From: a virus
Length of the DNA: 64,000 bases
IMG/VR virus record: IMGVR_UViG_3300023296_001057
Location: 1-64,000 of that record
Strand: one strand, 5' to 3'
Part shown: piece after piece, positions 750-53,397 of the stretch
How positions within the stretch are numbered: position 1 is the first letter of the stretch
How the letters are laid out: every line of letters starts with the position of its first letter
Notes under the pieces: generated by a model
What the model saw: only the letters and a program-made list of their open reading frames with translations
Database searches by the model: none
Told to the model about the DNA's origin: nothing
Made by a program: the position numbers and the translations under genes

Positions 750-958
750 GGATTTTCCCGTAAGTATTTAATGTAATCCGTAATCTGATTTTTTATTTCT
801 TTTAATCTTTCAACTGATGTTAAAAATCTCAGTATATAATCTGTTGTTGCATTATTACTATCCCACGATTCTGGATATGTTTGGTTAATACAGACCCATT
901 CACCACAATTACGGGATGTGAACAACCGTGCTACTTGAACTCTTGGTGAGATTCGAAC
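746..958 (-). pseudogene. 5'-truncated ORF running out of tRNA-Arg
   Basis: The frame is open from just after a stop inside the tRNA-Arg gene to a TGA overlapping the next start, about 70 codons. It has no ATG. The last 60 residues (ending TDYIKYLRENP) look like real protein. The 5' part of the gene appears to have been replaced by the tRNA, as expected if foreign DNA recombined at the tRNA 3' end. It could still be expressed from a non-ATG start. Function unknown. Confidence 0.5.
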
Positions 959-1010
959 TCACATTGATACGACTTAGAAGGTCGTTGCCTATCCATTCGG
1001 CCACAAGAGC
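938..1010 (-). tRNA. tRNA-Arg(TCT)
   Basis: Cloverleaf read on the minus strand: acceptor GCTCTTG pairs with CAAGAGT, anticodon stem ACGAC/GTCGT closes loop CTTCTAA giving anticodon TCT, and the T-arm has TTCGAAT between GTGAG and CTCAC. CCA is not encoded. It reads AGA codons, which suit an AT-rich phage. Confidence 0.9.
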
Positions 1011-1098
1011 GTGTTTCATTATTTCAAAATATCTGTGATATTACAGATAATTCAGAATATCTGTTAATTAGTAGATATTCCCTAATACTAATAACGTT

Positions 1099-1123
1099 CA
1101 GGGCGGGAGCCCTTGCCTCCCTG
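1099..1123. other. GC-rich hairpin between tRNA genes
   Basis: CAGGG and CCCTG (outer) or GGGAG and CTCCC (inner, 7-nt loop) can pair. It is a GC-rich island in AT-rich DNA between tRNA-Arg and tRNA-Ser. The 5-bp stem with 7-nt loop resembles an orphan anticodon arm, so it may be a tRNA remnant or a processing signal. No terminator U-run follows. Confidence 0.4.
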
Positions 1124-1152
1124 TTGATTAAAAAACCAATTAACCCCGACAG

Positions 1153-1239
1153 CGGAAGATGAGGGAATTGAACCCCCGTAGGCTTTTATACCTAGCTTCG
1201 GCTTAGCAAGCCGCCACATTACCACTCTGTCAATCTTCC
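1153..1239 (-). tRNA. tRNA-Ser(GCT)
   Basis: Class II tRNA on the minus strand. Acceptor GGAAGAT pairs with ATCTTCC, anticodon loop TTGCTAA gives GCT, a long variable arm follows, and the T-loop is TTCAATT. It reads AGC/AGU. Confidence 0.9.
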
Positions 1240-1250
1240 ATATTTAGTGA

Positions 1251-1337
1251 GGAGAAAGTGGGACTCGAACCCACAACGGCACTTTCGTACCGCTACTTGT
1301 TTTCAAGACAAGCCCCTCATCCAGCCGGATCTTCTCC
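1251..1337 (-). tRNA. tRNA-Ser(TGA)
   Basis: Class II tRNA: acceptor GGAGAAG pairs with the 3' strand TTTCTCC (one G-U), anticodon stem CTTGT/ACAAG with loop CTTGAAA gives TGA, and a long variable arm contains a GGTAC/GTGCC-type hairpin. T-loop TTCGAGT. It reads UCA codons. Confidence 0.9.
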
Positions 1338-1383
1338 AATAATTGCCGATTGCATCTTTCCATTTAGAATATACCCCCTAATA

Positions 1384-1425
1384 GGAGGCAATAGGAATCG
1401 AACCTATATCTCATTCGGAATTGTG
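1384..1425 (-). tRNA. 3'-half tRNA remnant
   Basis: On the minus strand there is a perfect T-arm (ATAGG, TTCGATT, CCTAT) followed by an acceptor strand TGCCTCC. The expected 5' partner GGAGGCA, D-arm and anticodon arm are absent; tRNA-Leu lies directly upstream instead. It looks like the 3' half of a deleted tRNA gene. Confidence 0.6.
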
Positions 1426-1499
1426 TACCAAGAGCGGGTCTCGAACCCGCAACATTCAGATTTTAAGTCTGACGCCTCTTCCTGTTGGGCTACCTTGGC
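1426..1499 (-). tRNA. tRNA-Leu(TAA) with short variable loop
   Basis: Acceptor GCCAAGG pairs with TCTTGGT, anticodon stem TCAGA/TCTGA closes loop CTTAAAA (anticodon TAA), T-arm GCGGG/CCCGC with TTCGAGA, discriminator A. The variable loop is only about 5 nt (ATGTT), whereas bacterial leucine tRNAs are class II with a long arm. Either the decoding identity or charging is unusual, or the arm was lost. Confidence 0.75.
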
Positions 1500-1513
1500 A
1501 TTTTAATTATTGT

Positions 1514-1586
1514 ACCGCATAGGGGATTTGAACCCACTATTCTTCGCCTTGAAAGGGCGACGTCTTAACCAATTCGACGTGGATTA
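1514..1586 (-). tRNA. tRNA-Glu(TTC)-like, possibly chimeric
   Basis: D-arm GTC..GAC and anticodon arm TCGCC/GGCGA with loop CTTTCAA (TTC) are intact and Glu-like. The 3' acceptor strand ATGCGGT does not pair with the sequence 5' of the D-arm, and the T-stem has a bulge or mismatch. The 3' part looks transplanted from another tRNA. Functionality is doubtful. Confidence 0.5.
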
Positions 1587-1796
1587 TCTGTCGGATTCCA
1601 ACCGAATTTCCCCCCTTTGTAGGGGGATTCTAACCAATTTCCCATTTTCGTCTTCGATTAAATATGTAAAATCACCATCTTCAGTTATATGTACTGTTAC
1701 ATTTTCATACATACCACCATATGATAAAAACCTTACAATTTCCTCACGTGATTCACCAAATTCTTCCATGAAAAATTCAATTAGTTTCTCATTCAT
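1584..1796 (-). CDS. Small acidic phage protein, unknown
   Basis: 70 codons, ATG start. Residues 1-20 form an amphipathic helix (MNEKLIEFFMEEFGESREE), then a beta-rich part with NGKLVRIPL. The C-terminal codons run up to the tRNA-Glu-like element. It is an isolated gene inside the tRNA array, with its own promoter at 1834-1862 and a TATAAATA box at 1824-1831. No known family recognised. Confidence 0.6.
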   Translation of the reverse strand: MNEKLIEFFMEEFGESREEIVRFLSYGGMYENVTVHITEDGDFTYLIEDENGKLVRIPLQRGEIRLESDR

Positions 1797-1823
1797 ATCT
1801 TTATTAATTAAGTTATCATTAAA

Positions 1824-1831
1824 TATTTATA
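1824..1831 (-). promoter_or_regulatory. T4-type late promoter box
   Basis: TATAAATA on the minus strand, about 28 bp before the ATG at 1796. It matches the T4 late consensus, where gp55-type sigma needs only this box. Downstream of the early-type promoter at 1834-1862, so the gene may be expressed in both phases. Confidence 0.4.
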
Positions 1832-1833
1832 TA

Positions 1834-1862
1834 AATGTAATAACTATTCGAATTGATGTCAA
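1834..1862 (-). promoter_or_regulatory. Early-type promoter
   Basis: TTGACA, 17-bp spacer, TACATT; reads leftward into the gene at 1796. One of a family of near-identical sites in this window. Confidence 0.65.
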
Positions 1863-1874
1863 GTTTTATTTTTG

Positions 1875-1947
1875 TCGAAGATGTCAGATTTGAACTGCGC
1901 CCTATCGTCCCAAACGATATGTGCTACCGGATTACACCACACCCTCG
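1875..1947 (-). tRNA. tRNA-Pro(TGG), imperfect
   Basis: Acceptor CGAGGGT pairs with ATCTTCG using two G-U pairs (C1-G72 and A73 are prolyl identity elements). Anticodon stem TATCG/CGATA with loop TTTGGGA gives TGG. The T-stem is weak (about three pairs) and one extra base precedes the D-stem. Probably a decaying tRNA-Pro. Confidence 0.6.
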
Positions 1948-1963
1948 ATATACGCTTTTTACT

Positions 1964-2014
1964 GACTTCACTAGAGTCACCCATTCACATGGGAGGTTAT
2001 TTCAACGTCAACCT
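1964..2014. other. Three tandem small hairpins between tRNAs
   Basis: Consecutive inverted repeats: GACT/AGTC (1964-1978), CCCAT/ATGGG with a tetraloop that reads GTGA on the minus strand (1980-1993), and AGGTT/AACCT (1994-2014). They fill the spacer between two proline-type tRNAs. They may be a processing signal or a small structured RNA; they do not form a tRNA. Confidence 0.4.
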
Positions 2015-2019
2015 TTTTG

Positions 2020-2115
2020 TCTAGGTGGTGGGATTTGAACCCACGAAATGACACCCTTTGCGCCACTTATCCGATTCCAAGTCGGACGAGGATAGCCTGA
2101 CTCCTCCACACCTAG
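2020..2115 (-). tRNA. Class II tRNA with UGG (Pro) anticodon
   Basis: A well-formed 96-nt cloverleaf: acceptor CTAGGTG/CACCTAG, D-stem GAGG/CCTC, anticodon stem TCCGA/TCGGA with loop CTTGGAA (anticodon TGG), T-arm GTGGG/CCCAC. The variable region is about 25 nt and can form a 6-bp stem. C1-G72, A73 and G35/G36 are prolyl identity elements, yet the long arm is a Ser/Leu/Tyr trait. A one-base shift would give GGA (Ser) but breaks the stem with a C-C mismatch. Confidence 0.75.
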
Positions 2116-2119
2116 TTAA

Positions 2120-2193
2120 TAATCAAATCGGGAGTCGATACCCGAATTTCCCAGCCCTAATGGCCGGGTGCCCTTCTATTAGACGATTTGATT
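2120..2193 (-). tRNA. tRNA with irregular anticodon loop, isotype unassigned
   Basis: Acceptor AATCAAA/TTTGATT pairs perfectly and D-stem GTCT/GGGC pairs with wobbles. The anticodon arm is 19 nt instead of 17: CCCGGC/GCTGGG (6 bp) closing CATTAGG, or a 5-bp stem with a 9-nt loop. The T-loop has 8 nt. Read with the 6-bp stem, the anticodon would be TTA (ochre), but position 33 is A rather than U, so I do not assign an isotype. Confidence 0.5.
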
Positions 2194-2194
2194 G

Positions 2195-2277
2195 TGCTAC
2201 GGGTAGGAATCGAACCTACAAGCCCTTTCGGGAACGGCTTTACAGACCGCGGAGCCCACCACCTACTCAACCGTAGC
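2195..2277 (-). tRNA. tRNA-Tyr(GTA)
   Basis: Acceptor GCTACGG/CCGTAGC, loop CTGTAAA (anticodon GTA), a class II variable arm with CCC/GGG, and T-arm GTAGG/CCTAC. Separated from the next tRNA by a single base, so the pair must be processed from one transcript. Confidence 0.9.
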
Positions 2278-2351
2278 ATATATGAGGAAGAAGGGATAAC
2301 TTTCCAATACCTTCAATTATGATCACAGTAACGATCAACCTTCAGTTTCTT

Positions 2352-2651
2352 TTAATGATTTAGATAACCAGTCTTTGCTTCCAAATATCTTTCACCAGCT
2401 TCCTTTGTCATTTTTTCATCATTTGATACTTCCAATGTTTGTCCGTCTTCACTTTTGTAAACCCATTTTGTTTCAGTATCCCATTCACTTCCAGTCGAAT
2501 GTGTGAACTCAAATAATTTTCGGGTTCCTCTCCTTTTTGGTGATACTACTGTATAAGAGGTATCAAACGGTACATCTCGTTCACTCATACGGATTACATT
2601 TTCGGCCTTATCAAATTCAAATTTTGTACTACTTAAATAAATAAATCTCAT
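2352..2651 (-). CDS. Small phage protein, unknown
   Basis: 99 codons, ATG at 2651, preceded by an early-type promoter at 2692-2720. The protein is beta-rich (KFEFDKAENVIRM; WVYKSEDGQTLEV) and ends in a helical EAGERYLEAK segment. No family recognised. It sits alone between tRNA-Gln and tRNA-Tyr. Confidence 0.65.
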   Translation of the reverse strand: MRFIYLSSTKFEFDKAENVIRMSERDVPFDTSYTVVSPKRRGTRKLFEFTHSTGSEWDTETKWVYKSEDGQTLEVSNDEKMTKEAGERYLEAKTGYLNH

Positions 2652-2691
2652 TTTTAAAATAAGTTAGATTAATGTTTTCATTAACTCCATA

Positions 2692-2720
2692 AATTTACAA
2701 ATTTATTTTATTAATGTCAA
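2692..2720 (-). promoter_or_regulatory. Early-type promoter
   Basis: TTGACA, 17-bp spacer, TAAATT; 41 bp before the start codon at 2651. Confidence 0.7.
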
Positions 2721-2744
2721 CTCTTATTTTAAAAAAGTAAAAAG

Positions 2745-2827
2745 TTGGAGAGGAGGGACTCGAACCCCCACAGAGATTTCTCTCGCAGATTCAAAGCCTG
2801 CTGTCCTGCCAATTAGACGACTCTCCA
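2745..2827 (-). tRNA. tRNA-Gln(TTG) with extended variable arm
   Basis: Acceptor TGGAGAG/CTCTCCA (U1-A72 as in glutamine tRNAs), anticodon stem GCAGG/TCTGC with loop CTTTGAA (TTG), T-loop TTCGAGT. The variable region is 15 nt and contains AGAGA/TCTCT, a hairpin not expected in a class I tRNA. An orphan TTGACA lies upstream at 2845-2850 without a convincing -10. Confidence 0.85.
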
Positions 2828-19963: not shown

Positions 19964-20497
19964 TTAGGTGTAATATTCTCTAATATCAATACTACCTTCA
20001 ACTTCATTTCCCCAAATATCCCAACCTTGCTTTCCATCCCTGCAAAACATTTCAAGTCGATTAGCACTCGGAAACCAATCTTTTATTAAATCTCGTATGA
20101 AATTAGGTTTTTTACTGTGTTTTGAGCGTTTTTCTACCATAACACTACTTATTCTTTTATCGCTCGCAGGTGGGCTAAATTTACCTTTCTTTGCCACAAT
20201 AAGTATTTCGTGCTGTCCTCTAAACCAATACCCCATTCCAATCATTTGTTTGTCCCAAACACCTTGCGTTACATAAGTAAAGCCCCAAGCATCTATAACT
20301 TTTAATGCCTCAAGTAATTTAGGAGCGGTAGCCCATAAATAAAGTACGGCATTTTTGTTTGTCATATTGTCCACAGGTAAATCGCATATTTCCTTTATGC
20401 TCATTGTTGGGTATTGGTTTTCAATATCCCTGCTTTTACTTTTACTAAAGTCATATCGCCAAGCAGGGTCGGCATAAATTACATCGTATTTTTTCAT
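19964..20497 (-). CDS. MT-A70 family adenine methyltransferase
   Basis: 177 residues. YADPAWRYDF (about 8-17) is the DPPW-type catalytic motif of MT-A70 (with A for the second P), followed by NAVLYLWATAP and GYWFRGQHEILIVAKKG. MT-A70 enzymes methylate adenine N6 in DNA or RNA using SAM. Its upstream edge is an attC-like site (20527-20580) and its codon use looks less AT-rich than neighbours. TACACCTAA occurs at both ends in inverted orientation, suggesting an inserted cassette. Confidence 0.85.
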   Translation of the reverse strand: MKKYDVIYADPAWRYDFSKSKSRDIENQYPTMSIKEICDLPVDNMTNKNAVLYLWATAPKLLEALKVIDAWGFTYVTQGVWDKQMIGMGYWFRGQHEILIVAKKGKFSPPASDKRISSVMVEKRSKHSKKPNFIRDLIKDWFPSANRLEMFCRDGKQGWDIWGNEVEGSIDIREYYT

Positions 20498-20526
20498 CTT
20501 TCGTTATTTTAATCCGTTCATACTAC

Positions 20527-20580
20527 ACCTAACAATGTGTAAAACGGCATTAAAACGACCGTTTACACTCAGCGTTAGAC
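20527..20580 (+). other. Integron attC-like site 1
   Basis: 54 bp on the plus strand: ACCTAAC (RYYYAAC) ... GTTAGAC (GTTRRRY), with inner arms TGTGTAAAACGG and CCGTTTACAC that pair except for one extra A. The TAACAA...GCGTTAG ends match the usual attC orientation. A near-copy lies at 29133-29179. The 3' end of the HAD gene is formed by this element. Confidence 0.7.
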
Positions 20581-21107
20581 CAACTATGTTTCATACGCGA
20601 AACTCTATGTTTCACTCCTAATTTGGATAACCTTCTTTTCGCTGCTTTCACATTCTCGATAGAATCATCAATAAAAAATACATCATCGTATCCATCTTTT
20701 TTTATTTTTTCCTCGATCCAATCTGCTTTATGTTGAGGATCTGCACTTCCCAACGCTACTACTTCTACATCTCTAATACCAATATCCTTTAAATATATAC
20801 TTATTGGTTTTGCCTTACTTCTTGCTGTTAATATATACACACCTCTATTACCCCTTGCTCTTACCATATCTTTTAAAATTCTAGTAATCGCCTTTATTTC
20901 AGTGGGATTTTTTATAGTATCGAATTCTCTAAAATCAAATTCATCACCTTTTCTTGGTTTATATACTGCATATTGACCAGGTGTTAGTTTACTAATATTT
21001 CCACTTTCATGGTTGACGTATATATATGAATCGGTTTTTATAAGTGTATCATCCATATCAAATACTCTTAGTTTTTTAGATTCTATAAATAAAGTTCTTG
21101 CTATCAT
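20550..21107 (-). CDS. HAD-superfamily phosphatase
   Basis: 185 residues: FDMDDTL (about 16-22) with the nucleophilic Asp, ILTARS (about 95-100) and FFIDDSIENV (about 144-153) complete the HAD motifs. It resembles the small HAD enzymes of T4-like phages (5'-nucleotidase or polynucleotide 3'-phosphatase type). The last ten residues (SNAECKRSF) are encoded by the attC-like site, so the natural C-terminus may have been replaced. Confidence 0.8.
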   Translation of the reverse strand: MIARTLFIESKKLRVFDMDDTLIKTDSYIYVNHESGNISKLTPGQYAVYKPRKGDEFDFREFDTIKNPTEIKAITRILKDMVRARGNRGVYILTARSKAKPISIYLKDIGIRDVEVVALGSADPQHKADWIEEKIKKDGYDDVFFIDDSIENVKAAKRRLSKLGVKHRVSRMKHSWSNAECKRSF

Positions 21108-21778: not shown

Positions 21779-23605
21779 TTATTTTTTAGCAATTTTCCAT
21801 ACAATAGAACCTACACCCTTTGCATCCAATTTATTTAATTTTTTCTTAACATTATCGTTAGCTACATCCCAAATTTGCCCTAACAGAGAAGCCGTTTGTA
21901 AATCAACTAATACCCCATCTATTTTTTTAGCTTGTTTAGAATTAGCGACTCGAAATATACCATTAATAGTATTGGATGGTTCTACTGCTTCATTAATAGA
22001 TTCATTCTTAGCATCCCAATTTTTATCTATATAATCAAAGAATTCTTTTTGTTTCTCGGTTGATAAGTCATCTGGTGATTCTACATCAAATTTTGATAAA
22101 ACCATCTTAAAGAACTTCTGATATTCAGTTTCTTCGTTTACAGTTGGGTCGCATTCATCACATTCTTCATCGTATGCTTCCATTACTGCTCTTTTGTCTT
22201 TCAACATTTTTTTAAGTAATTCTTTTACAATTTTACCACCAGCATCATCATACATTTTATGAGCTCTACCTTCAAATCCTTTAATGGATTCACCTGTTCT
22301 TGCAAATTGAACGTCTCCGTTGGGTGTTTGTAAATAAAATTCACCAAATCCCATATGCTTTACTTCACTGTTAGGTAATACTCCACTTGTTCTGTTAATA
22401 AAAGTAGTATCTACATATATATCTTTTCCTTTTTTCTTAATATGCCCTTCAGATGCTTCATTGATCATTCCTTCTAATAGTCCACCTGCAATTCCACCTA
22501 CTTCAAAATCTGGATCATCTGCGTATTTCTTACTCAATAGTACAAATGATTTTCTTCCTTTCTTAATTGTCATATGTGGTATAGGAGAAAATGAAAAATC
22601 TATTTTCTTAAATCCAGCAGCTTTCAATGGATCTCTTAATCCCATTAAATTTCCTGTTGTCTTTACTACACCTTTAATGGTTTCAATATCTTGTGCTGAA
22701 AAGTTTTCATTTATAGATTCAGTTACTATAATAACGGGTTCATCATATCTATTAGCCCCAATAGTGTATTTTTTACTACTAGTTCCTTTTGTTACAATTA
22801 ATGTCCCATCGGATTTAGTATCAACAACCGTAAAATAATCATTTTTATTTGAACGTTTAAATCCGCTTTCGTTACCCAAATAGAAAACAGAACCCTTTTT
22901 AGCCACATCCTCAAAATCATCTAATGAATTATACTTTTTATTGGATTCATTAATAGATTCATCAATTGCCTTTGGAAATGGTGTTTTCTTAGCTATTTGA
23001 TATAACTTTTCCAAATCAGCTGGATCATTTCTATCAAACTTATCAGCGTTTCTGGTTTTCTTAAAAATGGCAGACGTTTTCTTACCATCTTTTTGGAGCA
23101 TGATAATTATACCCTTTCCTTTATTATACAATCGTTCGTCAAATACTGAAATGGATTCATTAATAGATTCATTCTTAGCATCCCAATTTTTATCTATGTA
23201 ATCAAAGAATTCTTTTTGTTTCTCAGTTGATAGATCGTCTGGTGATTCTACATCGAATTTTGATAAAACTGTCTTAAAGAATTTTTGATATTCAGTTTCT
23301 TCGTTTACAGATTCATCCAAATCCTCTGGTTCATCTAACAATGCTTTATTGAATTTAGTTTCAGCTGTTTTAAATTTTGCGGTTTGGTTTTTAACTTCTT
23401 TATGCAGATTTACTATTTCTTTTTTTAATTTCTCTTTTTCGTCTGCTGAAGATTTCTTAAATTTATTAACCAATTCTGTTTGTTTATCTAATAAATTTTG
23501 GAGTTTTAGTCCCTCTTGTTGATAAGATTCGGATGCTTGTTTAAATCCTTTTGATATTCCAGCCTCTACTAACTTTGTGCTGATCTTTTGTTTGAGTTTA
23601 TCCAT
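21779..23605 (-). CDS. Modular repeat protein, putative internal head protein
   Basis: I prefer the ATG at 23605 (MDKLKQKISTKLVEAGISKG) to one 66 bp upstream whose extra residues do not look like protein. About 608 residues made of small modules separated by acidic linkers of type (D/N/T)ESINE(S/A/N). Two modules of about 50 residues (EYQKFFKxVLSKFDVESP...) are near-identical. The N-terminal 90 residues form a coiled coil. INE|S resembles the T4 gp21 prohead-protease consensus (L/I)xE, so the chain may be cut into several peptides inside the capsid. No enzyme motif. Confidence 0.7.
   Translation of the reverse strand: MDKLKQKISTKLVEAGISKGFKQASESYQQEGLKLQNLLDKQTELVNKFKKSSADEKEKLKKEIVNLHKEVKNQTAKFKTAETKFNKALLDEPEDLDESVNEETEYQKFFKTVLSKFDVESPDDLSTEKQKEFFDYIDKNWDAKNESINESISVFDERLYNKGKGIIIMLQKDGKKTSAIFKKTRNADKFDRNDPADLEKLYQIAKKTPFPKAIDESINESNKKYNSLDDFEDVAKKGSVFYLGNESGFKRSNKNDYFTVVDTKSDGTLIVTKGTSSKKYTIGANRYDEPVIIVTESINENFSAQDIETIKGVVKTTGNLMGLRDPLKAAGFKKIDFSFSPIPHMTIKKGRKSFVLLSKKYADDPDFEVGGIAGGLLEGMINEASEGHIKKKGKDIYVDTTFINRTSGVLPNSEVKHMGFGEFYLQTPNGDVQFARTGESIKGFEGRAHKMYDDAGGKIVKELLKKMLKDKRAVMEAYDEECDECDPTVNEETEYQKFFKMVLSKFDVESPDDLSTEKQKEFFDYIDKNWDAKNESINEAVEPSNTINGIFRVANSKQAKKIDGVLVDLQTASLLGQIWDVANDNVKKKLNKLDAKGVGSIVWKIAKK
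21991..22142 (-). repeat. 152-bp direct repeat, copy A
   Basis: Encodes the second EYQKFFK module of the modular protein; nearly identical in DNA to 23158-23309, which points to recent internal duplication. Confidence 0.85.
23158..23309 (-). repeat. 152-bp direct repeat, copy B
   Basis: Encodes the first EYQKFFK module. Differences from copy A are scattered single bases, mostly silent. Confidence 0.85.
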
Positions 23606-23675
23606 TGTAGAATTTTCCTTTATTAATATTTTTGTATATCTATAAGTATTAGAAAACAATAAAAAACACAATTAT

Positions 23676-25081: not shown

Positions 25082-26038
25082 TTATCTTTCAAAATCTATA
25101 TATTTTTTATTTCCATTTGATGTTAAAATAACATCTACATCATCAAATTTATCCAATTTAGTTTTACCAATATATTTAAAATCATCTAACCATTCATAGA
25201 TCAATCCATATGTATCTGAAAATCCATAATAGGTTATTAAATTAGAACTATCTATATTTTTATAAATATGTACTATATTTTCAATTTCATTAATTTCTCG
25301 TAGTGTATGTAGTTTCATTCTTTTTTTTGAAAATAATATTACATCATTCCATCTTAATTTTTTAAATAGAGTATGATGATACAAATTGTCCAGATTATTA
25401 ATATCATCATTAATATCAACAAGTCCATCACATTGATATTCTTTCCCACTCTTTCTTTTAAATTCACCTAAAACATCACACGTATTATCAAACCCCTTTT
25501 TAGAAAATAATACAACAGTGCGATGTCCACCTGCAACATTCCACTTTCCTAATACCACATATGGGAGATGAAAATGATTCAATAAATCATCTTCCGAGTT
25601 AAACAGAGATTTTTGAATTTTGAACCAATGATGATTATTTCTTGTACTTTCTGAAATATTTCCAGTATCAAATATTAAATATTTGGATCTTAATAATAAC
25701 TTTAAAAAAACATCATCTGCAGTTGCAAGACCATATTTTCCGAGAATGTGATGGTAAATACTTAAAAATAATGTACAGTCATTATAAACAATATCATTAG
25801 TTGTTATAATATTACGTTTTTTAAAATGAAAATCGGATGGATAGTTAAGTCCATCAGCCAAATCAGTACCCATTACCGTTTTACCCAATTTATGTTGTAA
25901 GGGGTATGATATATTCCCATTATTACAACCAACATCATATATAACATTTATATCGTTTGAATCTTGAATAAATTCAAAAACCATATTTTTTTTAAAATCA
26001 CCGGTTCTTCTATAATATGAACTGTTATCTATCATCAT
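25082..26038 (-). CDS. SAM methyltransferase with extra C-terminal domain
   Basis: 318 residues. IYDVGCNNGNISYPL (about 33-47) is the SAM-binding glycine loop of class I methyltransferases. After about residue 180 a second region (DNLYHHTLFKKLRWNDVILF; YYGFSDTYGLIYEWLDDF) looks kinase-like in strand order but lacks a clear catalytic loop. A sugar or lipid-carrier modifier is plausible given its neighbours. Confidence 0.65.
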   Translation of the reverse strand: MMIDNSSYYRRTGDFKKNMVFEFIQDSNDINVIYDVGCNNGNISYPLQHKLGKTVMGTDLADGLNYPSDFHFKKRNIITTNDIVYNDCTLFLSIYHHILGKYGLATADDVFLKLLLRSKYLIFDTGNISESTRNNHHWFKIQKSLFNSEDDLLNHFHLPYVVLGKWNVAGGHRTVVLFSKKGFDNTCDVLGEFKRKSGKEYQCDGLVDINDDINNLDNLYHHTLFKKLRWNDVILFSKKRMKLHTLREINEIENIVHIYKNIDSSNLITYYGFSDTYGLIYEWLDDFKYIGKTKLDKFDDVDVILTSNGNKKYIDFER

Positions 26039-27027
26039 GTCTCCTTTAATATTGTATCCACAACTCGTTTTGACGTGATACCATCACCATATGGACACTC
26101 AATTTCAATATATGGATTTTTTATCAGAATGTCAAATAAATCTTTAAGTTCATTAGGTCTATCACATAAATGTAAGTGTCCTGTATCAATTCCTTCGGGT
26201 CTTTCTGTAGTCTTTCTACATACAATAACTTTCTTATTAAAGAATGAACCCTCTTCCTGTAATCCACCGCTATCTGTTATTATTAATGATGCTGATTTGA
26301 GTACCTTAATGAAGTCATCGTGTTCCATAGGTTCTACTACGTTAACATTAGTTAATAAATTTTTATATTTAATAACATTTGGATTCGGGTGAATCGGTAG
26401 GACAAATTCTATATGTGGATATTCTTTGGCAATATTATTAATTTCTTCAAACCACTGTTCTATCCAATGATGATTCTCCCGTCTGTGAAGTGTAATTAAT
26501 ACTTTATCTTCATATGTAGGCTTTCCATATTTAGTGAGGTTATCTAGTACTGAATTACCTACTACTTTGATATCACCGTGGACTTTTTCACTCCTCAAAT
26601 TTTCTGCTGACAATTCAGTTGGTGTGAAATTCACATCTGCTATTCGGGATATCATTTGTCTATACCCTTCTTCAGGATATGGATGTTTCATATTTCCGCT
26701 ACGGAGTCCTGCCTCTAAGTAGTATATCTTTAATTCCCTATTAAAAGCGGATAGAGCACAACCAAAAGATGAACCTGTGTCACCCTGTACTAATACTGAA
26801 TCAATCGTATAGTCATTTGGAAATTGTAACATACAAGAACTTATAATACTATCCAATCTATTAGCTGACCAGTTAGGTATTTTAATTTTATAATCTACTT
26901 CTATATTTTTTAGTAAATCAGGATGCTGTCCTGTAAATAGTAATTTATATTGAGAACTATCTAAAATCTCAATTAATGGTTTTACTTTCAACCATTCGGG
27001 CCTTGTACCAAAACATATTAAAATCAT
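26035..27027 (-). CDS. wecB: UDP-N-acetylglucosamine 2-epimerase
   Basis: 330 residues. FGTRPEWLKVKPLI at the start, TGQHPDLL, GDTGSSFG, LEAGLRSG (about 106-113), TLHRREN (about 185-191), IHPNP and DSGGLQEE (about 254-261) are hallmarks of WecB/MnaA. It interconverts UDP-GlcNAc and UDP-ManNAc, supplying donors to the glycosyltransferases around it. Full length for the family is about 360-380, so it is slightly short. Confidence 0.9.
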   Translation of the reverse strand: MILICFGTRPEWLKVKPLIEILDSSQYKLLFTGQHPDLLKNIEVDYKIKIPNWSANRLDSIISSCMLQFPNDYTIDSVLVQGDTGSSFGCALSAFNRELKIYYLEAGLRSGNMKHPYPEEGYRQMISRIADVNFTPTELSAENLRSEKVHGDIKVVGNSVLDNLTKYGKPTYEDKVLITLHRRENHHWIEQWFEEINNIAKEYPHIEFVLPIHPNPNVIKYKNLLTNVNVVEPMEHDDFIKVLKSASLIITDSGGLQEEGSFFNKKVIVCRKTTERPEGIDTGHLHLCDRPNELKDLFDILIKNPYIEIECPYGDGITSKRVVDTILKET

Positions 27028-27075: not shown

Positions 27076-27504
27076 TCAACTTAAATAGTCAAGAGCTTTC
27101 TTATATATTTCTGTTCTTGCATAATCATCTTCGTTAGGATTAGAAATTCTTTTTAAGTTTATGTTATCTTTCAAATCAGCTATTTTCACAATCTTCGCCA
27201 ATCGGTTAGACTTTACATTACTTAAATATGACTTATAAGATGCTGATGGTTTCTTAGTTATTGCTTTAACCGCGAGTGAAACCTCTTTACCAAATACTTT
27301 TTCAATTTCCCTGATATTTATCTTTGTATCTTCAACAATATCATGTAATAATGCTACAATTCCCAATGATTCAGGCTTAGCATTAAATCCGCCTACACCT
27401 TTGAAAACTCGTTTAATATGATTAAAGTAAGGACTTCCTCCCCTATCTCTATATCCACTATGTAATTTTTCTGCTAATTTATACGCTTTCTTTATGTCAG
27501 TCAT
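27076..27504 (-). CDS. Small (p)ppGpp hydrolase (HD domain)
   Basis: 142 residues. FNHIKRVF, LLHDIVEDT (about 53-61) and KIADLKDNINLKR (about 106-118) are the HD-domain residues of RelA/SpoT hydrolases and Mesh1-like small alarmone hydrolases. Such enzymes degrade ppGpp or pppGpp using Mn. Overlaps ORF 27497 by 8 bp and lies downstream of a broken synthetase gene, the arrangement of a toxSAS/antitoxin pair. Confidence 0.8.
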   Translation of the reverse strand: MTDIKKAYKLAEKLHSGYRDRGGSPYFNHIKRVFKGVGGFNAKPESLGIVALLHDIVEDTKINIREIEKVFGKEVSLAVKAITKKPSASYKSYLSNVKSNRLAKIVKIADLKDNINLKRISNPNEDDYARTEIYKKALDYLS

Positions 27505-28653: not shown

Positions 28654-28674
28654 TACGATCAGTTGTAAACAATG

Positions 28675-29103
28675 CTACGTTCTACCATCAAACACCACCA
28701 CCATAGAATCGTGCATTCCAGCTTTGCCCGTAACATATTCACCCTTCGTATTTACACCGCAAAATTTTATTCTCTTTTCTATGAATCGGATCTCTTTTTG
28801 GTTCGGCAATATATGTCTGTGAAATAATTGAGTGCTTGTGCTTACAGGTAAAAGCATTACACATAATTTACCTTTCTTGCTTTCCTCTATTGCCTTAATT
28901 ACGAACGCATCTTTAAGTTTTCTGCTATAAGGTGGGTTAATAAAATTTCGCTCCTTCCATTCTACATTTAAACCATCGTGCTTTTCAATATCGTTTTGAT
29001 ACGGGCAAGGGTCGTAGTTAAAATTAAATTCACCGTTCAATTCATCATAAAAGTATGGTGGTGTAGCCCAATCGTCTTTATGTGGTATATTTCTATTTTT
29101 CAT
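28675..29103 (-). CDS. Phage-type DNA N6-adenine methyltransferase
   Basis: 142 residues. DDWATPPYFYDELN (about 10-23), YDPCP and FINPPYSRK (about 53-61, NPPY catalytic motif), then a hydrophobic strand VMLLPVST. This is the small phage Dam family. Flanked by attC-like site 2 on its start side and a short AACAATG...ACGTT sequence on its stop side (28668-28682), consistent with a gene cassette. Confidence 0.85.
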   Translation of the reverse strand: MKNRNIPHKDDWATPPYFYDELNGEFNFNYDPCPYQNDIEKHDGLNVEWKERNFINPPYSRKLKDAFVIKAIEESKKGKLCVMLLPVSTSTQLFHRHILPNQKEIRFIEKRIKFCGVNTKGEYVTGKAGMHDSMVVVFDGRT

Positions 29104-29132
29104 AATTTATCTCTTTAAATCCGCACAGTTTA

Positions 29133-29179
29133 CAACAATGTGTAAACGGCATTAAAACGACCGCTTACACTCAGCGTTA
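29133..29179 (+). other. Integron attC-like site 2
   Basis: AACAATGTGTAAACGG, an 11-bp spacer, then CCGCTTACACTCAGCGTTA. It matches attC-like site 1 over about 47 bp and diverges exactly outside the AAC and GTT cores, as expected for recombination crossover points. Confidence 0.65.
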
Positions 29180-29242
29180 TATATAATATATATATAAGTA
29201 CTGAATTTTAAAAAATCCGGTACCAAAATATATTAAAATCAT
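29177..29242 (-). pseudogene. Remnant of a second 2-epimerase start
   Basis: 21 codons, MILIYFGTGFFKIQ..., matching the start of wecB (MILICFGTRPEWLKV) in protein and DNA, then cut off at the attC-like site, whose TAA is its stop. It suggests a duplicated wecB 5' end lost when the methyltransferase segment arrived. Confidence 0.55.
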
Positions 29243-29953: not shown

Positions 29954-30690
29954 TATAACGAATCGTAAAATTCATTTTGAGCTAATTGACGTTCTATCTC
30001 CTTATGATGGTATAAACAATAATGCTCATCGGTTGGGAGAGCTGTAAACGTTGAATACCCAGTTATCTTTTCATGCACCTTACCTAACCATTGAACTTCT
30101 TTTGTGTTCTTATACAGTCTAGTTTGGTAATCAGGATGGTTGATTATAGGTATATAGTACTCTACCTCGTCTTCGTTTTCATTAATGATCAAATTATTTT
30201 CCTGTAATAATCGGTATTCATCACTTGTAAAATTCATTTCTTTTTTTGCGACGTGAGTTTCTAACTTTGATATCTTCCAATTCCATTTTTTTACATGAGT
30301 ATACCCAAGTCCATCTACTGTATTAATTCTTGGAATAAAAAATAAATCAATTTCATTATTTTCCTCTAACAGATTAGGTAGAATTTCAAGTAAATATTCA
30401 TGTGGTATTTCATCCGCATCTAACTGAAGTATATAATCACCTTTTGAATGTTGTTTTAGATTCGATTTAAACGTACCAAAGTCATCATTTAATGGAAATC
30501 CTACTACCTTAATAGTATCATGTACGTTCTTTATCACATTTAAGTATTCCATTACCTCATCAGTAACGCCTGTTTTGTCATACTGAATAATGATTTCATC
30601 TTCGATTCGGATTCTAGGTTGTAAGAAATTTATTAAACTTGTAATTTCTTTAATTTCGTTTACTACGGTTATTGCGTATGATATAATCAT
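29953..30690 (-). CDS. Family 2-like glycosyltransferase
   Basis: 245 residues; YILQLDADEIPHEYL (about 86-100) carries the DxD motif, the N-terminus SYAITVVNEIKEI is the usual GT2 donor strand, and the C-terminal YCLYHHKE fits a catalytic His region. Acceptor unknown. Confidence 0.75.
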   Translation of the reverse strand: MIISYAITVVNEIKEITSLINFLQPRIRIEDEIIIQYDKTGVTDEVMEYLNVIKNVHDTIKVVGFPLNDDFGTFKSNLKQHSKGDYILQLDADEIPHEYLLEILPNLLEENNEIDLFFIPRINTVDGLGYTHVKKWNWKISKLETHVAKKEMNFTSDEYRLLQENNLIINENEDEVEYYIPIINHPDYQTRLYKNTKEVQWLGKVHEKITGYSTFTALPTDEHYCLYHHKEIERQLAQNEFYDSL

Positions 30691-49482: not shown

Positions 49483-52400
49483 TTAAGCACATTTACTTGT
49501 GCCACACGTTTTACAAATCAAACACGATTCAGCATATTCGATTTGGCAATCATCACCATCGTTAGGACAATCCAATGGATTATCTTTTATTAATTTTTCT
49601 GCTCTTGTAGTATCTATATATTTCTTTAATTGTCTTGCAATAGCTTTACTAAACGAAACAATAGATCCTTCTGCTTTTTCTAATTGTTCAACGACAAAAT
49701 CTATCTTCGCCCCATGTCGTAATGAAGTAGAGATCAATCTTGTTATAGCAACTTCTTCATCTGTATTTGTTTCAGTAATGTTATCTTCAACTCCACCATT
49801 TACAAAGTTATAGTGTCCTGATTTAATTTTTACCATTTCACCTACATCTTTATGTTTTCCATATTTACCCTTTACAGCAAATACTTCGTATGGGAATTCA
49901 TTCATTATACCCACAAATACTGTCCACTGTTCACCCTTTGCTACAGTGTGATAAACATCACAATATAACGATTTAGGTCTTTTAGGTGCATCAGAGTGAA
50001 CAATTCCTACTTGTTTGTCTTTCTTTGATGTAGTATTTAATACACCTGTTCGACATTCATCTCTATATGCTGTTATTCCTTTACAACCACTTTTCCAAGC
50101 TGTCATATATACATCATTTACTACATCTACTGATATATCTTTTGGTAAGTTTACGGTTACTGATATAGAGTGATCTATATGTTTTTGAACCCGTCCTTGC
50201 ATTTCTACCTTTTTGACCCAATCTACATCATTTGCGGTTGTACCATGATATGGTGATTTTCTAATCCACTCATCCGCCTCAACTTTTGTTAAATTAATAA
50301 TTTCATCCTCTGATAATCCATTTATTTTTAAAAATAGTTTAAATGTTGGGTGAAATACTGGAAACTCTTGCCAAGAATCTCCCATTTCATCAGTGTAATC
50401 AACTCTTACGTTTGCATCATTTGGATTGACCTTCTTAGAACGGAAATATACAATAGAAAATACGTTTTCAATTCCAGACGATGTTTGTGTCATTAAAGAA
50501 ACTGTCCCAGTCGGGGCTATCGTAGATATTGCTATATTTCGTCTTCCCGATCTTTGTAGCCTGTTCCATAATTCTTCATTTTCACTTTTCAATCGTAATA
50601 AAAACGGATTATTAATTTCTCTTTCTGGATCCCAAATTGGGAATGCTCCTCTTTCTTCTGCAAGTATGATGGAAGATTCATATTCTTTATGTTTCTTTCT
50701 CATCATTAAATCTTCCACAAAATCGTTACATTCATCGCTACCATATGTAAGTCCAATTGCTGCAACCATATCACCAAGTGCAGTAATTCCACATCCAGTT
50801 CTTCTACCTTGTTCAGCTTTTTCTTTGATGGTTTCCCATAAATTTAATTCTACCCATTTAATATCATCTGGCTCAGGATCTGCTTTAATCTTATTTATAA
50901 TTTTTTGTACGGCTTCCAATTCTAAATCAATGATATCATCCATTAATCTCATTGCTAATACTACTTGTTCATCAAATTTATCCCAATCAAAATATGCGTT
51001 TTCCGTAAACGGATTAACAACAAATTTAAATAAGTTCACTGCCAATAATCTACAACTATCTCTATCACAAAGAGTGATCTCACCACACTGCAAGTTATTG
51101 ATATATAAGCTCTTATGTTTTTCGTTAGTTGTTTTTGTTTCAAATCCACCTATGAAAAAATTATGAAATTCATCAACAGTCCCGTTATAAACATCCTCAG
51201 TCCCGTCAAGTTCAACAGAAACAACTTTGTGATTATAATTCATTGCCATTTCTTTCAATTTATTGAAATTTTCTATTGGGGAAGACTTTCTACCAATTTC
51301 AGATGACACGTTTAGAGATTTACATTCAAGTATCCATTCTTTCAACATTGGTATCCTTCCCAATTTAAACTTTAAATCTGAATATATTTTCACTTGTTCA
51401 TTAGCAACTTTCCCTTTTCTCTCGTTTTCAGTTTTTGTTCTTGTTGATTTTATTCTAGCTTTGATATCAGTATTAGAATGCATTTGAATGTTATGGCATT
51501 TGGTAGAGCACAATGATACCTCTCTTTGTTGATGCTTATGTTTTATTTCCGTACCACAGCATTCACATTGTTTTGTTATAATAACTTGGTTACCCACAAT
51601 TTCAGCATCGTATCCCTCATCCAACATTCTATGATATGTTTTTACCAATCTGGGATCAACATCACTATATTTTTCCAAGCCCAATTCCTTGGCCGCCCAT
51701 TTTGCCAATGATATAACATTACCATTTAATTGTTTCTGTCTCCACCCACTAAAATGTTGTGGCATACCCACACTTTTAGCATGTTCTCGCCATTCTTTTA
51801 TAGAAAATCGGCAGTTTAATTTATCAGTCAATTTTAATGCCGATTTTCTTAAATCTCCTTCTGTATAACCAGAATAGTTACCATTCAACACACCAGCAGA
51901 TTCACTGAACTTTCGCTTCCAATCATCAGTCATTCTATGATATGGGTTTTTATCACCTATCATGTCTTGACAATGCAATTCATCGTGTGCAACTTTACTC
52001 ATAATCCAAAGGTTGCTTGGGTTATTATTCCTTGTATTATAGTCGATATGATGTACAACATGCCCTTTAGGTATTTTAGTATTATTATTAAACTCAGCAA
52101 TTATCCTATGTTCTGATTTACTCCCCCTAATATTACCATTATTAATCCAAATATAATCTTGTGACTTACTATTAGAACCTGGGAACATATCTTTTAATGA
52201 TGCCTCATATTTTGTCATAACTTGTAAAGAATCACCAAATACCAAATCTTTGGCTTCCTTATATTCTCCATTTTTTAACATAAATTTATGATTGCCAGTA
52301 ACTCTTTCAGTCCACCCATCTTCCAATGTGACTTTATAAATGGGCTCGTCATATCCAGTTATTCTTGGATTCCTCATATACCGAATTACAACATTCCCCT

Positions 52401-53397
52401 TTTCATCATAACAATAAACAGGAACATCTTTATTTTCTTCTGCAAGCTGTTTTATTGTTATATCTCCACGACCATCTGCAACTGATATTATGGTGTCTCC
52501 AACTATACATGGATTTGTTGAAACTGTCTTAAATCCGAGGTCTGCGTAACAATCAGGAATAGATTCTCTGAGAATTGTATCCCAAAACAACAAACCAGGT
52601 TCCGCATTATCCCAAACATTAAAAATTAATTTATGCCAAATTTCTTGAGGGTTAACAACCTTAGTTATTTGTGCTTCTTCTACTGGTTTATCAGTAGGCC
52701 AGTGTAATATAAATTCAGTATCACCTCTATCAACTGCTTGTAAAAATGAATCGTATTGTCTAACAGAAACATTTGCACCTGTTACTGATTTTTTATCTGC
52801 TTTAATATCTATAAATTGTTCAACATCAGGGTGTAATCCACTAATAGTCAACATTAATGCCCCACGTCTACCCGATTGAGCCACTTCACGAGTAGTATCT
52901 GAATATCGTTCCATAAACGATACCGCACCAGTTGAAGTTCTTGCAGCATTATTTACAGGTGTAGTTTCTGGTCGTAAATGTGATATATCAGTACCAACAC
53001 CTGCTCTTCGTTTCATTAAGTGAACTAAATGTTCATCGGTTCTCATTATACCTGAATACGAATCTGCAGTATTTTGAACCACAAAGCAATTAGATAAACT
53101 CATTACTTGAAATGGATTTCCTATAGCCGCCATTGGTGAACCCTGTGGTATTAAATACCCAAAATCCTTTAACGAATCGTATATTTCTTCGTAAGTTCGA
53201 CCGTTCTTATACGTTTGTTCTATTCTATATAATTCACTTGCCATCCTATGATGCATATCATCTGGAGTTGCTTCATATAAATTACCTTCATTATCTTTTA
53301 ATGCGTATTTATCTAAAAAAACACTAGCTTCTAAGTTTGAGCCATTAAAATATTCTTCGGATAGGTGTAACGCTTTTTCATAATCAATTTTTTTCAT
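49483..53397 (-). CDS. nrdJ: Class II ribonucleotide reductase with intein
   Basis: 1304 residues including an intein of about 474. Extein features: MSLSNCFVV (Cys 104), STNP/CGE catalytic region split by the intein, PTGTVSLMTQTSSGIENVFS and the C-terminal CLICKTCG redox tail. Class II enzymes use adenosylcobalamin and make dNTP precursors without oxygen. The intein (297-770) contains an HNH homing endonuclease. The long 3' part from 771 follows CGEITLCDRDSCRLLAVNL. Confidence 0.9.
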   Translation of the reverse strand: MKKIDYEKALHLSEEYFNGSNLEASVFLDKYALKDNEGNLYEATPDDMHHRMASELYRIEQTYKNGRTYEEIYDSLKDFGYLIPQGSPMAAIGNPFQVMSLSNCFVVQNTADSYSGIMRTDEHLVHLMKRRAGVGTDISHLRPETTPVNNAARTSTGAVSFMERYSDTTREVAQSGRRGALMLTISGLHPDVEQFIDIKADKKSVTGANVSVRQYDSFLQAVDRGDTEFILHWPTDKPVEEAQITKVVNPQEIWHKLIFNVWDNAEPGLLFWDTILRESIPDCYADLGFKTVSTNPCIVGDTIISVADGRGDITIKQLAEENKDVPVYCYDEKGNVVIRYMRNPRITGYDEPIYKVTLEDGWTERVTGNHKFMLKNGEYKEAKDLVFGDSLQVMTKYEASLKDMFPGSNSKSQDYIWINNGNIRGSKSEHRIIAEFNNNTKIPKGHVVHHIDYNTRNNNPSNLWIMSKVAHDELHCQDMIGDKNPYHRMTDDWKRKFSESAGVLNGNYSGYTEGDLRKSALKLTDKLNCRFSIKEWREHAKSVGMPQHFSGWRQKQLNGNVISLAKWAAKELGLEKYSDVDPRLVKTYHRMLDEGYDAEIVGNQVIITKQCECCGTEIKHKHQQREVSLCSTKCHNIQMHSNTDIKARIKSTRTKTENERKGKVANEQVKIYSDLKFKLGRIPMLKEWILECKSLNVSSEIGRKSSPIENFNKLKEMAMNYNHKVVSVELDGTEDVYNGTVDEFHNFFIGGFETKTTNEKHKSLYINNLQCGEITLCDRDSCRLLAVNLFKFVVNPFTENAYFDWDKFDEQVVLAMRLMDDIIDLELEAVQKIINKIKADPEPDDIKWVELNLWETIKEKAEQGRRTGCGITALGDMVAAIGLTYGSDECNDFVEDLMMRKKHKEYESSIILAEERGAFPIWDPEREINNPFLLRLKSENEELWNRLQRSGRRNIAISTIAPTGTVSLMTQTSSGIENVFSIVYFRSKKVNPNDANVRVDYTDEMGDSWQEFPVFHPTFKLFLKINGLSEDEIINLTKVEADEWIRKSPYHGTTANDVDWVKKVEMQGRVQKHIDHSISVTVNLPKDISVDVVNDVYMTAWKSGCKGITAYRDECRTGVLNTTSKKDKQVGIVHSDAPKRPKSLYCDVYHTVAKGEQWTVFVGIMNEFPYEVFAVKGKYGKHKDVGEMVKIKSGHYNFVNGGVEDNITETNTDEEVAITRLISTSLRHGAKIDFVVEQLEKAEGSIVSFSKAIARQLKKYIDTTRAEKLIKDNPLDCPNDGDDCQIEYAESCLICKTCGTSKCA
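51088..52509 (-). mobile_element. Intein with HNH homing endonuclease in nrdJ
   Basis: Begins with Cys297 (CIVGDTIISVADG), block B TGNHKFML (about 367-374), HNH endonuclease VVHHIDYNTRNNNPSNL (about 447-463), a zinc-finger-like CECCG...CSTKC (about 611-634), block F VYNGTVDEFHNFFI and ends NNLQ before Cys771. The terminal Q and the missing penultimate His are unusual (normally HN). Inserted exactly in the active-site STNPCGE. Confidence 0.85.

Follow-up and report, generated by a model that had tools for sequence, protein, structure and literature searches.

Integrons have a known role in the transfer of resistance genes from one bacterium to another. Sites of the attC type and CALINs have also been described in phages, with methyltransferases among the cargo, in a survey of 10,705 phage genomes for clusters in which a stretch of 3 kb contains two or more attCs (Qi et al. 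2023; PMC9892861). In the same study, IntI1 recombined five of six attCs of virulent phages in E. coli, one of them from Polaribacter phage P12002L, for which divergent attC directions were reported and mosaicism was suggested (PMC9892861). Insertions of cassettes outside integrons, at attG sites, were described by Loot et al. (2024), as summarised in PMC12901181 and PMC11023631.

Here we report on a stretch of DNA of 64,000 nucleotides from an uncultured phage (the window; positions 1 to 64,000 of IMG/VR record IMGVR_UViG_3300023296_001057), in which an initial annotation had noted one attC-like hairpin beside an MT-A70 methyltransferase gene and had suggested a new route for cassette spread. 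That route was already known: phage attCs beside methyltransferases had been reported in 2023, and the route had been proposed and partly tested (PMC9892861). The record contains two such sites, which are, with a probability of roughly 0.8, attCs of integron cassettes carrying orphan DNA adenine methyltransferases; these cassettes would be moved by a host integrase, transcribed by read-through and used against restriction.

Results

The source record is a viral contig of 69,013 bases with a G+C content of 31%, which encodes a B-family DNA polymerase, a clamp loader, a UvsX-like recombinase and an exonuclease. The best match of the DNA polymerase was that of Microcystis phage Mel-JY01 (49.5%), and the relatives of this protein did not settle the host assignment. 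An Rfam scan of the window returned tRNAs and nothing else; eight tRNA genes are predicted at 937-2827 (minus strand), two of them for tRNA-Pro with the same anticodon. The window also contains a ribonucleotide reductase large subunit split by an intein that carries an HNH endonuclease domain (49483-53397) and a long open reading frame (21779-23671) with two near-identical stretches of about 100 bases (near 21995 and 23160). Near glycosyltransferase-like genes lie two reading frames whose translations, judged by eye, resemble a UDP-GlcNAc 2-epimerase (26035-27027) and an HD-type (SpoT-like) hydrolase (27076-27504).

Site 1 (20527-20580, plus strand), defined from the sequence, folding and a class 1 attC model, consists of R'' (ACCTAAC), L'' (TGTGTAAAACGG), a loop, L' (CCGTTTACACT) and R' (GTTAGAC). 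The structural features noted initially were all confirmed: RYYYAAC and GTTRRRY cores 54 bp apart (ACCTAAC at 20527, GTTAGAC ending at 20580), inverted arms with a single unpaired A on the L'' arm, asymmetric spacers, and the repeat TACACCTAA at 20524-20532 (plus strand), whose inverted copy at 19964-19972 is the other cassette edge. The predicted insertion point is G20574|T20575. Cassette 1 (611 bp, 19964-20574), delimited by edge complementarity and a copy in another viral contig, has canonical attC polarity on the plus strand and its gene on the minus strand. Left edges were sought as TT-led upstream sequence complementary to the bases preceding R''; that of cassette 1, the cassette-borne R' half, is TTAGGTGTAATAT (19964-19976, plus strand), and its left junction is T|TT, the base before the edge being T instead of the usual G.

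The gene in cassette 1 (19964-20497, minus strand) encodes an MT-A70 family adenine methyltransferase, as first proposed, with a Pfam match above the curated cut-off (PF05063, E 1e-24) and a match to PHROG 359, DNA methyltransferase (E 4.9e-61). Its start codon lies 33 bp from the attC, and its orientation is reversed relative to a canonical attC, which had gone unremarked. Among 78 MT-A70 relatives in viral contigs, most are without an R1-type attC and the closest mostly have one; three relatives (L137, L138, L073) have complementary edges with other attC-like sequences, at an edge score equalled by 9 of 1,500 chance pairings. Cassette 1 probably sits in the 3' end of a HAD-family phosphatase-like gene (20550-21107, minus strand), the last 9 codons of which are read from the attC. 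Joining the cassette flanks gives this gene an immediate stop, and a relative in contig L068 (58% identical) continues and is then followed directly by a kinase-like gene, with no cassette. No relative of the HAD-family gene was found among named phages, and only two relatives, at 58%, among viral contigs.

Site 2 (29127-29184, plus strand), absent from the initial annotation, was found by a DNA search of the record (match 29134-29179, 45 of 47 positions identical to site 1) and stands beside a second methyltransferase gene. Its cores (TTACAAC and GTTATAT) keep AAC and GTT and depart from the consensus at variable positions, and the extra unpaired A of site 1 is absent. Cassette 2 (514 bp, 28663-29176), delimited by edge analysis and by a copy in contig L005, has the polarity of cassette 1; its left edge at 28663 reads CAG|TTGTAAACAATGC, with the left junction CAG|TTGTAAAC and the right junction GCG|TTATAT. 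The insertion is intergenic, at CAG|TT. Another contig (L069), which matches the gene next to cassette 2 without a difference, ends at the attC. The gene inside (28675-29103, minus strand) encodes a Dam-family phage N6-adenine methyltransferase (PF05869, E 5.4e-20, above the curated cut-off; PHROG 111; TIGR01712 below its cut-off). The two sites stand 8.6 kb apart and so fall outside the CALIN definition of at least two attCs close together.

The core pair alone proves little, since first-order Markov sequences are expected to contain TAACAA...GCGTTA 0.27 times, and the window contains it once. The linear hairpin of site 1 was modestly better than shuffled sequences (z -2.0 for the top strand, -1.3 for the bottom strand). 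When site 1 was joined with the far-edge sequence, as in an excised circle, the fold reached -15.1 kcal/mol, and none of 200 shuffles was as good; the bottom strands of the circle forms gave -15.1 and -15.4 kcal/mol for sites 1 and 2 (z -5.4 and -4.5), and the top strands were less stable. At both sites the joining of the cassette ends restores a near-perfect R''/R' arm. Of the 2,218 AAC positions of the window, 0.09% have edge complementarity as good as that of site 1, and 1.1% as good as that of site 2. Across 16 related sites, seven stem pairs had changed on both sides, against 3.6 in shuffled and 0 to 4 in slid controls. The class 1 model, built for this analysis from 12 attCs of plasmid-borne class 1 integrons, scores the sites that it was trained on at 22-50 bits; with filters off, its top match in the window was 20527-20580 on the plus strand at a weak 16.2 bits (E 0.2), followed by one at 11.2 bits, and site 2 was not listed. 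This match supports attC identity, short of proof. The evidence beyond chance is the second site at 29134-29179, together with the mobile copies elsewhere.

Viral contigs were searched for attCs by sequence patterns, which gave 13 contigs with the same attC and, with a further pattern, 48 more. A copy of cassette 1 in contig L003 is 92.2% identical across window positions 19964-20577, the copy of cassette 2 in L005 is 99.2% identical over 521 bp (window positions 28662-29182), and the flanks are unrelated in both cases; a third cassette is common to contigs L013 and L016 (100% over 667 bp). In all three pairs, identity ends at the predicted cleavage points, to within a few TT-side bases that both members share. 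Because identity ends at the predicted junctions, attC polarity is fixed without recourse to motifs; a mislabelled polarity was considered, and the identity edges between phages uphold the canonical orientation claimed at the outset. In L003, four methyltransferase genes follow one another, with three attC sites detected in succession, near a gene matching a phage tail-completion family. Since near-identical cassettes stand elsewhere in other phages, phages seem, judging from these sequences, to share anti-restriction genes through bacterial cassette machinery.

The 64 sites collected in viral contigs gave 32 distinct cassettes whose left-edge score was at least 10, a cut-off set in the same script as the counting. 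The gene of an integron cassette typically, though not necessarily, reads towards its attC; the longest open reading frame ran opposite to this canonical direction in all 32, and the base before TT at the left edge was G in 25. The larger set is only partly independent, because the rule had emerged from 17 sites examined before it, and the viral sample falls short of the whole family, because the sites were collected with sequence patterns. Four sites below the cut, whose edges may be wrong, have a forward longest reading frame (L151 and the second site of L169, score 9; L148 and L167, score 6). On Bacteroidota chromosomes, by contrast, the canonical direction was found in 7 of 7 distinct cassettes at the same cut and in 9 of 9 at a score of at least 8. 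The difference between the 32 viral and the 9 chromosomal cassettes gave a Fisher p of 2.9e-9, a value that treats cassettes as independent though some are related. As a simple rule, reversed gene direction distinguishes the predicted cassettes of phages from those of hosts. The host contig L010, the one Bacteroidota contig obtained in a genome scan of the whole collection, was left out of the chromosomal count; at 126-2284 it has a cassette-like unit of two genes, restriction-modification-like, in which a nuclease-like gene lies forward and a DNA methyltransferase gene, placed end to end with it, is reversed. In 23 of the 26 viral cassettes with both neighbours known, both were co-directional with the cassette gene. 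Leaders were mostly 20-50 nt long, and no common promoter was seen by eye.

The payloads were assessed in 42 viral proteins (edge score at least 9, less two near-duplicates and the two forward reading frames of L151 and the second L169 site). If each match represents a different protein, 15 of them match DNA-modification families (N6_N4_Mtase 8, C5 2, MT-A70 2, Dam 1, D12 1, Mom 1); one of the 42 matches the Acb2/Tad1 hairpin domain.

No integrase had been visible in the window, and a match to PF00589 is indeed absent from the whole 69,013-base record, which lacks the intI with attI of a complete integron. The same search of 15 other cassette-bearing virus records, many of them fragments whose missing parts could contain such a gene, gave no match, while all 14 control genomes matched. 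As neither the record nor the 15 others encodes a detectable tyrosine recombinase, the best inference is that a Bacteroidota host, probably flavobacterial, provides the integrase. In a search of 50,697 phage records, the attC stretch gave matches in Polaribacter phage P12002L and Tenacibaculum phage JQ and in no other. Host genomes had been named as a place to look for the same cassette; in 386 Bacteroidota genomes, five of seven DNA matches to cassette 1 lay within the attC, and no whole-cassette copy was found.

Arrays of related attCs exist in Bacteroidota genomes, and a model match was obtained in 13 of 297. In contig L056 an IntI-like recombinase gene is divergent from an attC array with canonical gene direction; its protein reached 202.9 of the 265 bits required for the integron integrase family and 219.1 of the 220 required for NF040815. 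IntI above cut-off was present in two of the 13 genomes with a model match, with no model match beside it. The host integrase is inferred for this reason: the L056 protein scores below the cut-offs, and the IntI above cut-off have no adjoining model matches. IntI-like recombinases of about 280-370 aa were seen in several Bacteroidota (L056 8540-9382, G055:C4, G183:C13, G108:C91, G291:C54, G292:C4), some near attC arrays; they match the integron integrase model on either side of positions of about 180-238 and not across them, and are perhaps a group of integrases lacking the usual IntI insertion. In another genome (G089; contigs L043, L044, L045, L046) the same short attC with its upstream sequence stands at four contig ends, each with a right flank of its own, as though a single cassette had copies at four sites in the chromosome.

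Discussion

The proposal that the hairpin is the attC of a phage-borne cassette is supported by the cores, the extrahelical base, the arm restored in the circle, the cassette edges shared between phages and the weak top match of the class 1 model. During infection, the integron integrase of a Bacteroidota host would recombine the folded bottom strand of the attC, and would excise the cassette circle or insert it at attC or CG|TT (attG-like) sites of phage DNA. The cassette gene would then be transcribed through the attC by read-through from a co-directional phage operon, and the predicted methyltransferase would methylate phage DNA against host restriction. One idea on the reversal is that insertion sets how the attC is oriented with respect to phage transcription, which would leave reversed genes as the only ones expressed and kept.

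In the CTX phage, XerCD acts on a folded single strand at attP. A mobile hairpin element moved by another recombinase, such as host XerCD acting on a folded single strand, would accord with Xer-like recombinases encoded by all Bacteroidota searched, with the want of IntI in the cassette-bearing phages searched, and with short attCs and CG|TT targets that are somewhat unlike class 1 sites. We consider it improbable nonetheless, as the G|TT junction, the R''/R' pair and the extrahelical base are attC features, related sites stand in arrays beside an IntI-like gene in Bacteroidota, and a Polaribacter phage attC recombines with IntI1 (PMC9892861).

Slightly less probable again is copying between phages by homologous or illegitimate recombination, with the attCs as passive leftovers of a former integron array. 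Three pairs whose identity ends at both cleavage points argue against it, as do cassettes that are single and at dispersed sites and a G|TT kept at 25 of 32 left edges, even though phage genomes are mosaic, attCs could supply short homology, and this origin was proposed for some phage attC clusters (PMC9892861). That the hairpin is an ordinary transcription terminator or phage intergenic repeat, attC-like by chance, is hardly credible: the only mildly stable linear hairpin and a core pair that alone is not very rare would suit it, but no T-run follows the hairpin in the direction of transcription, the hairpin lies upstream of its accompanying gene, the arm is restored in the circle form at both sites, the same architecture recurs in 32 distinct viral cassettes and in chromosomal arrays, and near-identical cassettes at different loci have their edges at the junctions, a comparison that largely refutes it.

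Beyond the identification of the two sites as attCs of integron cassettes, phages of Bacteroidota may draw on a common pool of small cassettes in which DNA-modification genes abound, with the host integrase acting in trans and backwards genes expressed from phage operons without an integron promoter, a proposal that we put at even odds. Such a pool would be distinct from host cassettes because its genes run backwards relative to the attC. Through integron-type sites, phages appear to exchange counter-defence genes, and the reversal raises the question of what links gene direction to phage transcription and to the choice of attC strand. Searches that require clusters miss lone attCs such as sites 1 and 2. 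In open PubMed Central papers we found no description of systematic reversal, of dispersed lone phage cassettes with matching copies, or of the size of the pool.

The attG insertions, as presented in PMC12901181 and PMC11023631, resemble the present case in that a cassette lies outside an integron at a non-classical target; here the target is a phage genome and the integrase a presumed one of the host. Arrays on Bacteroidota chromosomes (L056, L061, L045, L048) have the same core (AACAATGTRTA...TAYACT-A-CGTT) and CG|TT edges as the window, but differ in their canonical gene direction, in many attCs of about 120-135 nt and in an IntI-like gene near some of them. Polaribacter phage P12002L (NC_028924) is like the window in having an attC of the same family (30002-30061; R1 model, 53.9 bits; short DNA match) and no integrase, with a DNA methyltransferase gene beside the attC, a left edge at 29237 and a gene that likewise runs backwards. 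Compared with the clusters of Qi et al. (2023), the window presents two lone cassettes 8.6 kb apart, with exact edges across viral contigs and a systematic reversal of the genes.
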